This document shows positions 2,485-6,149 of a stretch of DNA of 50,857 nucleotides, one piece after another. The notes under the pieces are model-generated. The model searched no databases. It was not told the DNA's origin and saw only the letters and a program-made list of their open reading frames with translations. Source of the DNA: an uncultured Bacteroidia bacterium (GTDB taxonomy: Bacteria > Bacteroidota > Bacteroidia > JANWVE01); assembly GCA_938028625.1 (NCBI GenBank), contig CALIZB010000074.1, forward strand, positions 1-50,857. The letters run 5' to 3'. Position numbers and translations under genes: made by a program. How positions within the stretch are numbered: the first letter of the stretch is position 1; the number at the start of each line of letters is the position of its first letter.

Positions 2485-2487
2485 CTT

Positions 2488-2886
2488 ATGCAGAATATTC
2501 TCTTACTCACTAAATCGGAGGAAAACCTGAAAAGTGCAGATATACTCATTGAGCATGCACACTATAACAGCAGTGTACATTGTGCGTATTATGCTTGCTT
2601 TCAAATAGTAATACTGATAACTTACAATTTACAAAATACGTATAATAACGGTAGAGGAGGTAGTCATGAGAGAATGATTAACTGCTTGATAACTTTATTA
2701 CAAGATGCTAATTACGACTCCGATAAAATTAAAGTTATTCATCAAAACTTAACTTTTCTTAAAAAGAACAGAACCAAAGCGGATTACAAAAATGTTCTTT
2801 TTAATGAAGAGAAAATCAAAGAAATTTATATTTGCGCACAGAACACACAAGTTTTGCTCAAAGAAATTCTTGATAATAAGATTTAA
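2488..2886 (+). CDS. HEPN-domain protein, UPF0332-like
   Basis: 132 aa helical protein: LLTKSEENLKSADILIEHAHYNSSVHCAYYACFQ ... HERMINCLITLL ... FLKKNRTKADYKNVLF. AYYAxFQ and R-x-x-ADY match the HEPN/UPF0332 pattern. Confidence 0.75.
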   Translation: MQNILLLTKSEENLKSADILIEHAHYNSSVHCAYYACFQIVILITYNLQNTYNNGRGGSHERMINCLITLLQDANYDSDKIKVIHQNLTFLKKNRTKADYKNVLFNEEKIKEIYICAQNTQVLLKEILDNKI

Positions 2887-2897
2887 TACATGTAAGT

Positions 2898-3341
2898 ATG
2901 AATGCTATTGACAAAATAAAAAAATGGTTAAGGGAAATAAAAAATGTATTTCCTGAATTAAAACTTAAATATGTCTATGAAAAAGAAGAGAACAGCCATT
3001 ACATATACATTAAACCCAATGATGCTTATCTTAATGGTGATTTTGGTAAGCATGCTCTGGAATTTTCTGTTGAATTTATTCGTGATTTTCCTGATGAGTA
3101 CATAGGATTCCTGCCTATGGAAGAGATGGAAGAATACGAACATAAGAAAGTATTGTTTGATAGTGAAAAACCAAGCGTTCAGCAAATAATAGTTATCAAT
3201 AGTTCCTTATATCCTGTCAGGATAATTAAAATGGCTCATCAGCAGAACGAAAATGATAGCAAAACTATACTCTCCATGCAATTATATCAGAAAACAGAAA
3301 GCAAAAATACACTAAACGAAAAATCTTATGCCGCATCCTGA
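2898..3341 (+). CDS. Hypothetical 147-aa protein between the HEPN and SecB-like genes; candidate antitoxin
   Basis: Intact ORF, 11 nt after the HEPN gene, overlapping the next ORF by 14 nt; no family recognised; polar C-terminal tail. Confidence 0.65.
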   Translation: MNAIDKIKKWLREIKNVFPELKLKYVYEKEENSHYIYIKPNDAYLNGDFGKHALEFSVEFIRDFPDEYIGFLPMEEMEEYEHKKVLFDSEKPSVQQIIVINSSLYPVRIIKMAHQQNENDSKTILSMQLYQKTESKNTLNEKSYAAS

Positions 3342-3792
3342 CAAAGAATTTACTACAAATATTAACATAAACGCTCATTTTACCGTACTGACAGTAAGAG
3401 CAACAGCCATTCATTTTGAATACAACAAAAATCTTACTTTGGAAGAGCAGGAAACTCTTAAAAATGCACCGCAGAAACAAATTACATACAGTGATGTAAG
3501 CATAGGTACAAATTATGTGTATCAGGAGGAGAGTTTACATGTTACAGTAGGAATAAAAGTAGAGGTTTTGCTTAATGGCATATTGCTCGCTGTGCTTAAA
3601 GCAGAATATGCAGGTGACTTTATCTGTAAGAATATTGAGCTGTCAGAGTTAAGTTTAACAGATTTTGCTACGCAGAATGCTCCTGCTATGGTCTACCCTT
3701 ACTTACGACAGGGTGTTAATTTTATTACGACACAAGCAGGCTTTCCTGCTTTGGTGTTACCTGTGATTATGATGAAAAAGGTAAAAATATAG
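3328..3792 (+). CDS. SecB-like chaperone
   Basis: 154 aa; C-terminal NAPAMVYPYLRQGVNFITTQAGFPALVLPVIM matches the SecB signature (fPYxRe.i......GfPxLxLxP). Confidence 0.75.
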   Translation: MPHPDKEFTTNININAHFTVLTVRATAIHFEYNKNLTLEEQETLKNAPQKQITYSDVSIGTNYVYQEESLHVTVGIKVEVLLNGILLAVLKAEYAGDFICKNIELSELSLTDFATQNAPAMVYPYLRQGVNFITTQAGFPALVLPVIMMKKVKI

Positions 3793-3839
3793 TAAAAGAA
3801 AACATGTATCTGTACAGTATTTATCTGTAATTTTGTGCT

Positions 3840-6149
3840 ATGAACTGGATAAAAAGAAATCTGTCCCTTTTAATAAAGTGTCTCTGGATTGGATTTGGTG
3901 TATTTTGGTTGAGTTTTTTTGCATTGTTTATAGTAGGCAAAAGTTTGTTGCCTTCCTTTCGCGCGTTAGATGACAAAAAACCTATGGAAGCCTCTATCGT
4001 TTACAGCGAGGACGGTGTAGTGCTGGGTAAATACTTTGACCAAAATCGTGTACCTGTTACATACGAGGAAATATCGCCTTATGTAATTACAGCTTTATTA
4101 GCCACAGAAGATGTTACCTTTTATAGCCATTCAGGAATTAGTTTAAGAGGTTTATTCAGAGCATTTGTTAACAACCTCAGAGGGGGAAGCAAACAAGGTG
4201 CAAGCACTCTAACTATGCAATTAGCAAGAAATTTATATGACGAAGAAGTAGGTCAGGAACGCAATATCAAAAGAAAAATCAAGGAAATTGTATGCGCCAT
4301 GTATATAGAACGCAACTTTACGAAAAAAGAAATTATCACTTTATACCTTAATACTGTACCCTGGGGAGGTACAACATATGGCATTCACTCAGCATCTAAA
4401 ATGTATTTTAGTAAGCATCCAAGATACTTACAGTTAGACGAAGCCGCTTTACTCGTAGGTATTCTCAAAGGTGCTTCTTACTATAATCCATTTCGTTATG
4501 GAAATAGAGCATTAGAACGCAGAAATGTAGTGCTAAATCAGTTGGTAAAATATGACCTGATTGAACCTAGTATTGCAGAGAAAGCAAAAAAGAAGCCTAC
4601 TTATCTACGTTTCTCTATAGAAGACCATAATGAAGGTTTAGCGGCATATTTCAGAGAACACTTGCGAGATAAACTACTCAAAAAATGGGCAAAAGAAAAT
4701 GGCTACAACCTCTATCATGACGGGCTTAAAATTTATACAACCATTAACAGCAAAATGCAGCAATATGCCGAAGAAGCTGTATACGAACATCTTTCTAAAA
4801 TGCAGGCAGAGTTTGATAAATATATGCCTGAAAACAGTGCTACTGAACCTTGGAATAAAAAACTTAGACCAGACTGGGCAGTAGATACCATGCCTCTATA
4901 TGAAGGATATATCCATTCAGAAAGATACAGGGTAATGAAAACTGCTGGTGCAACAGACGCAGAGATTCGCAAAGCATTCTCACAGCGTTTGGATTCTATT
5001 GAAGTATTTACTTGGGTTAAAGACAAAAAAGGTAAAATTGTACCAGGTACAAAATATATTTACAACAAAACCCCATGGGATTCTGTAAAATATACTGCTA
5101 AAATTCTCCGTTCTGCTATGGTTGCCATTGAACCTAATACCCGTTATGTACGCGCATGGGTAGGCAGTATAGGACATCACTATTTTAAGTACGACCAAGT
5201 AGCTAATGGAAAACGTCAGGTAGGTTCTGCTTTCAAGCCGTTTGTGTATACAGCCGCAATCATTAATGGAGTAGACCCTTGCGAAGAATTTTTAGACGCA
5301 CCTTACCAAGCTTTTGATAACCAAAGAATCAATAACAAAGATACTATGGTCATGATTTGGGCACCTAAAAATGCTGACGGTAAATTCAGAGGTATGACAC
5401 CACTCTGGGTAGGACTGAAAAACTCTATCAATACGGTTACTGCAAGAATTATGTATGAACGCCTTGGGGGAATTAACTCTCCAAATAACGTTGCCACCCT
5501 TGCCGAAAATATGGGAATAACTACCAAACTGGAACGTGTACTTTCCCTTGCTCTTGGTACTACAGATTTGACTATCCTTGAACTCACCAATGCCTATGCT
5601 ACTTTTGCCAATAAAGGTATTCGTTTAGAGCCTATTCTTATCACTAAAATAACAGATAGATATGGTAACGAAATCCCTAATCCTTTTAACAAACAAGACC
5701 CAAAAAACAGAATTGAAGCCATCAGTGCAAGTGTTGCCTACAAAATGTGCAGATTGTTGCAAAAAGTAGTGGTTGCAGGAACAGCCAGCGGTGCATATTA
5801 CAAATATCAGCTCAAAGGGGACATTGGCGGAAAAACAGGTACAACTCAAAAAAATTCTGATGCTTGGTTTATTGGTTTTACGCCAAAACTCTCCATAGGC
5901 GTATGGTTTGGTTGTGAAAGCAGGGGCGTACACTTTAATGATGGTAGAGGACAGGGCGGACAGGCTTCTGCACCTACTTTTGCTATATTCTATAAAAAAT
6001 GTTCAGATGACCCACAACTCAAAAATCGTATTATTGGAAACTTTCTTGACCTAAAACCCCCCGGCGACCCTGAATTCAAATTAGACTGTGATGAAAAATC
6101 TTCTGAAAAAAATATAGAAGAATTTAACCTTGAAGATGTAGTCAATTAG
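3840..6149 (+). CDS. Class A penicillin-binding protein (GT51 transglycosylase / transpeptidase, PBP1A type)
   Basis: N-terminal TM; GT51 motifs ATEDVTFYSHSGI and GASTLTMQLARNLY; transpeptidase SAFKPF and KTGTTQ. Confidence 0.96.
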   Translation: MNWIKRNLSLLIKCLWIGFGVFWLSFFALFIVGKSLLPSFRALDDKKPMEASIVYSEDGVVLGKYFDQNRVPVTYEEISPYVITALLATEDVTFYSHSGISLRGLFRAFVNNLRGGSKQGASTLTMQLARNLYDEEVGQERNIKRKIKEIVCAMYIERNFTKKEIITLYLNTVPWGGTTYGIHSASKMYFSKHPRYLQLDEAALLVGILKGASYYNPFRYGNRALERRNVVLNQLVKYDLIEPSIAEKAKKKPTYLRFSIEDHNEGLAAYFREHLRDKLLKKWAKENGYNLYHDGLKIYTTINSKMQQYAEEAVYEHLSKMQAEFDKYMPENSATEPWNKKLRPDWAVDTMPLYEGYIHSERYRVMKTAGATDAEIRKAFSQRLDSIEVFTWVKDKKGKIVPGTKYIYNKTPWDSVKYTAKILRSAMVAIEPNTRYVRAWVGSIGHHYFKYDQVANGKRQVGSAFKPFVYTAAIINGVDPCEEFLDAPYQAFDNQRINNKDTMVMIWAPKNADGKFRGMTPLWVGLKNSINTVTARIMYERLGGINSPNNVATLAENMGITTKLERVLSLALGTTDLTILELTNAYATFANKGIRLEPILITKITDRYGNEIPNPFNKQDPKNRIEAISASVAYKMCRLLQKVVVAGTASGAYYKYQLKGDIGGKTGTTQKNSDAWFIGFTPKLSIGVWFGCESRGVHFNDGRGQGGQASAPTFAIFYKKCSDDPQLKNRIIGNFLDLKPPGDPEFKLDCDEKSSEKNIEEFNLEDVVN

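Follow-up and report, generated by a model that had tools for sequence, protein, structure and literature searches.

A HEPN, antitoxin and SecB trio from Bacteroidota predicted to form a new class of toxin–antitoxin–chaperone operon

The 50,857-nucleotide (nt) contig CALIZB010000074.1 of an uncultured Bacteroidia bacterium (assembly GCA_938028625.1; ‘the window’ in what follows) carries three adjacent genes for a HEPN protein, a protein of unrecognised family and a SecB-like chaperone. This trio is very probably a tripartite toxin–antitoxin–chaperone (TAC) operon with a previously undescribed class of toxin, and we refer to it as HEPN-TAC. A preliminary description based on the sequence had proposed a TAC cassette with a HEPN toxin. 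That reading is supported by the conservation of the cassette, the architecture of the predicted antitoxin, an SsrA/ClpX-type C-terminus in the antitoxin family and the linkage of sampled SecB genes to TAC loci. The compact, co-directional arrangement reported there is exact in its coordinates, in the 11 nt that separate the HEPN and middle open reading frames (ORFs) and in the 14 nt shared by the middle and SecB-like ORFs.

Joint conservation of the three genes, on which the preliminary description had staked its reading, is found across Bacteroidota. The order HEPN–middle protein–SecB occurs at 37 contiguous loci, comprising 34 Bacteroidota genomes and three viral contigs (L067, L068 and L071), with intergenic gaps mostly between -4 and +15 nt. 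Carriers include Bacteroides ihuae, Flavobacterium, Mucilaginibacter, Pedobacter, Chitinophaga, Ferruginibacter, Tenacibaculum, Flammeovirga, Dyadobacter, Raineya and Ignavibacteria, among others. These loci were gathered by SecB-family searches of Bacteroidota genomes and by a SecB-alignment scan of genome contigs; profiles of HEPN and of the middle protein then served to score the genes upstream of each SecB. Among 395 genomes of the phylum, the middle-protein profile matches only the three that bear the trio, and no SecB-less version of the HEPN cassette was found. Pairwise distances co-vary among the three proteins (Mantel r 0.53–0.66), which indicates joint inheritance of the whole cassette. 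The flanking genes vary by locus. One prophage-like contig with a terminase-like ORF (L069, IMGVR_UViG_2576861546_000002) has a truncated antitoxin and SecB on the plus strand and a HEPN gene of the same family on the minus strand, about 3.3 kb away; this is a split or rearranged cassette. Searches of plasmid and phage records with SecB returned only distant plasmid SecB matches and no phage record.

The HEPN protein matches a single family, PF05168 (E = 8e-7), and its four-helix bundle fold is supported by Pfam, by AlphaFold 2 (AF2) and by Foldseek. The AF2 model is a confident helical bundle with a predicted local distance difference test (pLDDT) score of 92, and its top Foldseek match in the Protein Data Bank is 2hsb (AF0298; E = 3.6e-4, TM-score 0.77). 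By sequence profile, the nearest solved structures are 9xbd and 9xbc, and 9xbc differs from 9xbd by a Y-to-F change at the position equivalent to Y100. Within the family of 36 copies, Q39 is conserved together with H60 (35/36), R95 (35/35), D99 (32/35) and Y100 (35/35). The canonical HEPN ribonuclease (RNase) motif Rx4-6H is absent: the segment reads R95-TKA-D99-Y100, with no histidine from R+5 to R+7. For AF0298-like HEPN-T and AbiV proteins, an upstream histidine and the motif arginine have been proposed as an alternative active site (PMC3710099), and this signature is present here in H60 and R95. Because Rx4-6H is absent, the prediction of RNase activity follows this alternative-histidine argument, and the protein is presumed to be an RNase acting through H60, R95 and Y100. 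A family scan places it outside the known TAC toxin families HigB, MqsR, HicA and CmdT.

The middle protein is predicted to consist of an 82-residue folded domain followed by a disordered tail of about 60 residues. In the AF2 model, pLDDT is about 95 over the first 80 residues and below 50 for most of residues 85–136. A folded N-domain with a disordered tail resembles the layout of chaperone-addicted TAC antitoxins, and this modelled architecture, the family C-terminus and the conserved cassette together favour the antitoxin role suggested for the protein in the preliminary description. The family has no family-wide match in Pfam or NCBIfam; it was accordingly rejected as a housekeeping or otherwise known family, and as an MNT antitoxin since no nucleotidyltransferase family was matched. 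Comparison of the antitoxin with a library of viral structures was uninformative. In the antitoxin alignment, conservation reaches 90% only at M1, P40 and the final AA. In two loci the antitoxin gene is seemingly frameshifted (L028/L003, about 3494–4000; L059, 3433–3966), and the L028 tail ..ASYPLAA lies in a different frame, through assembly error, decay or recoding.

The C-terminal ending sets the antitoxins apart from the proteins encoded around them. Among 32 copies, a count without the split L069 and without L028 and L059, which are apparently frameshifted, 31 end in AA, compared with 0/32 HEPN proteins, 0/32 SecB proteins and 0/65 neighbouring proteins. An aromatic residue (Y or F) occupies position -5 in 27 of the 32, and L or M occupies position -3 in 21. 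At the family level, these endings resemble the degradation tag of transfer-messenger RNA (tmRNA, SsrA), suggestive of a ClpX-type degron.

The third protein belongs to the SecB family (PF02556, E = 1.7e-11) and is also detected by the PADLOC model for the CmdC chaperone (PD-T4-9_C, E = 1e-10). Both family calls of the preliminary description, UPF0332-like HEPN and SecB-like, are thus borne out, the former by the PF05168 match and the AF0298-like fold. That description had also asked whether a second, housekeeping SecB is present. There is none, and the cassette copy is the only SecB in its genome; this does not refute the TAC assignment, because the phylum sample as a whole showed no housekeeping SecB. 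Most sampled Bacteroidota genomes lack SecB, and the 395 genomes contain 11 SecB-like genes, all in TAC-type loci (3 HEPN, 3 CmdTAC and 5 HigBA-type, the CmdTAC and HigBA labels being a reading of the upstream ORFs). A housekeeping function for the cassette SecB was therefore rejected, and in this sample housekeeping SecB appears to be missing from Bacteroidota.

Some antitoxins reproduce the tmRNA tag of their own host, a feature that had no part in the preliminary description. Host tmRNAs were located and their tags read, six of them by scripted tmRNA translation where ARAGORN gave no tag or a misplaced one. Three antitoxins end in an exact 9-residue copy of the host tag, and the three tags differ: GENNYALAA in Bacteroides ihuae (antitoxin end A-GENNYALAA), GENNYAMAA in genome G724 (A-GENNYAMAA) and the rare GEYSYAMAA in a Chitinophagaceae genome (GEYSYAMAA). 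The Bacteroides ihuae and G724 antitoxins match even the alanine supplied by the charged tmRNA, and the end of the Mucilaginibacter antitoxin is one residue off the host tag. A CmdTAC-type antitoxin from Saprospiraceae (locus L042, ending near 3902; toxin called CmdT-like by eye) ends in GNYLYAMAA where the unusual host tag is GNYQYAMAA, an 8/9 match, so tag copying extends beyond HEPN-TAC. Two tmRNAs, with tags ANNFALAA and DNNNYSIAA, were found in the G655 bin (L146, L159), which is probably mixed.

At the seven positions before AA, identities between antitoxin ends and host tags sum to 78, whereas permuting the hosts yields 58.6 +/- 4.6 (p = 2e-5). The comparison covers 31 HEPN-TAC/host pairs, among them L025 and L028, whose gene is incomplete or frameshifted. 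With SecB and HEPN distance controlled, a partial Mantel test returns r = 0.21 (p = 0.004). The number of pairs is small, the only control for host phylogeny is through the TAC proteins, and most copies match the tag only in part. The tag test was run twice, the second time on an enlarged set, and its idea was drawn from the same data. The exact copies use synonymous codons that differ from those of the tmRNA (23–25 of 30 nt identical), which argues for protein-level selection over recent DNA capture of the tmRNA tag, and capture is accordingly disfavoured. In each of four genomes, a degenerate pattern for the ending has exactly two matches, one in the tmRNA and one in the antitoxin. From these sequences we infer that selection acts on the tail for recognition by the host SsrA-degradation pathway, sometimes to the point of an exact tag copy. 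A broader proposal, to which we give slightly less than even credence, is that Bacteroidota TAC antitoxins of both the HEPN-TAC and CmdTAC types mimic and track the host tag, with antitoxin level coupled to SsrA/ClpXP.

By analogy with CmdTAC, the antitoxin N-domain would bind and silence the HEPN protein, and a tetramer of the SecB-like chaperone would hold the antitoxin tail and hide its C-terminal degron from ClpXP. Phage structural proteins, as in CmdTAC, or stress could draw the chaperone off and expose the degron. The antitoxin would then be destroyed by ClpXP, and the freed HEPN protein would cut RNA and stop growth or infection. Both ClpX and tmRNA are present in the genome that carries the window. 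If antitoxins mimic the host tag, they and the products of trans-translation may compete for ClpXP and its adaptors; should HEPN cut mRNA, the resulting surge of tagged peptides could shield freshly synthesised antitoxin and return the switch to its initial state. Toxicity, an RNase function and defence against phage are predictions for HEPN-TAC.

Three observations weigh against a TAC operon with a HEPN toxin. Y100 occupies the R95+5 position in place of the canonical motif; the neighbouring genes are mostly housekeeping, with defence genes beside only two of the loci checked (AbiD by L024 and a type I restriction gene by L031); and the degron of the window's own antitoxin is uncertain, because this outlier ends in AAS (KSYAAS) and mismatches the host tag DNYSYSVAA. 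The HEPN protein could accordingly be a binding partner within a chaperone-linked regulatory or RNA-binding module that has no toxicity, a reading to which the missing Rx4-6H, the housekeeping neighbours and the weak KH-like structural matches of the antitoxin N-domain lend something. We consider it improbable, since H60, R95, D99 and Y100 persist in at least 32 of 35–36 highly divergent copies, as in the AF0298/AbiV type, for which activity has been predicted (PMC3710099), and since an addiction module would fit both the sporadic, accessory distribution and a partner that ends in a degron. Less probable still is a type VII toxin–antitoxin system of the HEPN-MNT kind, in which the middle protein would AMPylate a HEPN tyrosine and SecB would be merely a folding aid. 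The toxins of HEPN-MNT systems share the fold (Foldseek 5yep, 7bxo and 6m6w), the invariant Y100 could be the modified residue and the antitoxin model has a weak match to MntA (6m6w_A, E = 0.36). Against this, a nucleotidyltransferase family is found in 0/34 antitoxins, the restricted conservation of the alignment leaves no conserved catalytic residues, and the N-domain, of H-E-E-H-H-E-H topology, has only weak structural matches, the best being KH-type RNA-binding proteins (3gku, E = 0.015).

A further alternative concerns tag copying and leaves the TAC assignment untouched: the similarity of tails and tags could reflect a general preference of ClpX for xAA endings combined with shared ancestry. 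In most tails the match is confined to the aromatic residue, L/M and AA; the tags of related hosts are themselves related, and tag distance correlates with SecB and HEPN distance as well. Such an origin is nevertheless unlikely to explain why three different tags, one of which no other host shares among the 37 host tags compared, are each copied at 9/9 positions, or why the Saprospiraceae CmdA tail matches its unusual host tag at 8/9, and the permutation and partial Mantel results also speak against it.

The cassette (Table 1) begins directly behind uvrB, whose stop lies 3 nt before its start (window 2485–2488), and a PBP1A-type gene lies downstream of it. The remaining longer ORFs of the window look housekeeping when judged by eye. 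A search of two genomes from the same genus found uvrB and the PBP gene conserved at about 79% DNA identity, but without the trio and without the uvrB–PBP adjacency; the absence of the trio despite conserved flanks marks it as an accessory element. The Raineya cassette (L034, 3191–3192) starts directly behind the ATP synthase a-chain gene. In both cases the insertion is right behind a conserved housekeeping gene, whose transcription it may use. At one locus a SocA/Panacea-domain antitoxin-like gene (L043, 4415–4963) lies 16 nt downstream of HEPN-TAC.

Table 1. Features of the HEPN-TAC cassette in the window
Feature	Coordinates	Strand	Length	Remarks
HEPN toxin (predicted)	2488..2886	+	132 aa	PF05168; HEPN-T/UPF0332 type, alternative His H60, R95-x3-D99-Y100
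Antitoxin (predicted)	2898..3341	+	147 aa	Folded domain 1-82, disordered putative ChAD 85-147
Disordered C-terminal tail codons	3149..3338	+		Putative chaperone-binding and degron region; ends KSYAAS, not xAA
SecB-like TAC chaperone	3328..3792	+	154 aa	PF02556, PADLOC PD-T4-9_C

HEPN-TAC would add a HEPN class to the TAC systems, a group whose role in phage defence is beginning to emerge. Its setting is the Bacteroidota, including gut Bacteroides, where the sampled SecB-like chaperones occur only in TAC-type modules. Copying of the host tag offers a concrete and cheap handle on how TAC toxins are released; if it is real, the antitoxin can be tuned to the protein-disposal code of its host, which could limit the host range of the module.

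The named TAC classes are HigBA, MqsRA, HicAB and CmdTAC (PMC5105189; PMC9519451). No description of a HEPN TAC was found in the literature, subscription papers and preprints being outside the search, and no PADLOC model covers the HEPN, middle protein and SecB trio. HEPN-MNT (HepT-MntA) has a HEPN toxin of similar size and fold, whereas HEPN-TAC lacks an MNT partner and the Rx4-6H motif, conserves the alternative histidine and includes a chaperone. The alternative upstream histidine and arginine are common to the HEPN-TAC toxin and AF0298 (UPF0332)/AbiV-type HEPN-T proteins (PMC3710099; 2hsb, 9xbd, 9xbc), and we found no literature report of such a protein coupled to a SecB-like chaperone. 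A dedicated SecB-like chaperone is shared with HigBA1-SecB(TA) of Mycobacterium tuberculosis and the MqsRA and HicAB TACs (PMC5105189). Their antitoxins carry a C-terminal ChAD and a ClpX degron, which in HigA1 lies within the ChAD (PMC8165232), and the HEPN-TAC antitoxins appear similar in this respect at the family level. They differ in that the HigBA1, MqsRA and HicAB antitoxins are two-component antitoxin families with an added ChAD, whereas the HEPN-TAC antitoxin has no family match and its toxin is a HEPN protein.

CmdTAC (PD-T4-9), a phage-defence system of Escherichia coli, has the same order of toxin, antitoxin and SecB-like chaperone (PMC11618068; PMC9519451). Its antitoxin likewise has a structured N-terminal part and a disordered C-terminal part that ends in the ClpXP signal LAA; CmdC protects CmdA, which is degraded through ClpP without it (PMC11618068). 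The PADLOC model of the CmdTAC chaperone, PD-T4-9_C, also detects that of HEPN-TAC. The two systems differ in the toxin, an ADP-ribosyltransferase in CmdTAC, and in the antitoxin N-domain, which comes from another family. Loci judged by eye to be of the CmdTAC type also occur in Bacteroidota (L004, L005, L010, L012, L013, L042 and others).
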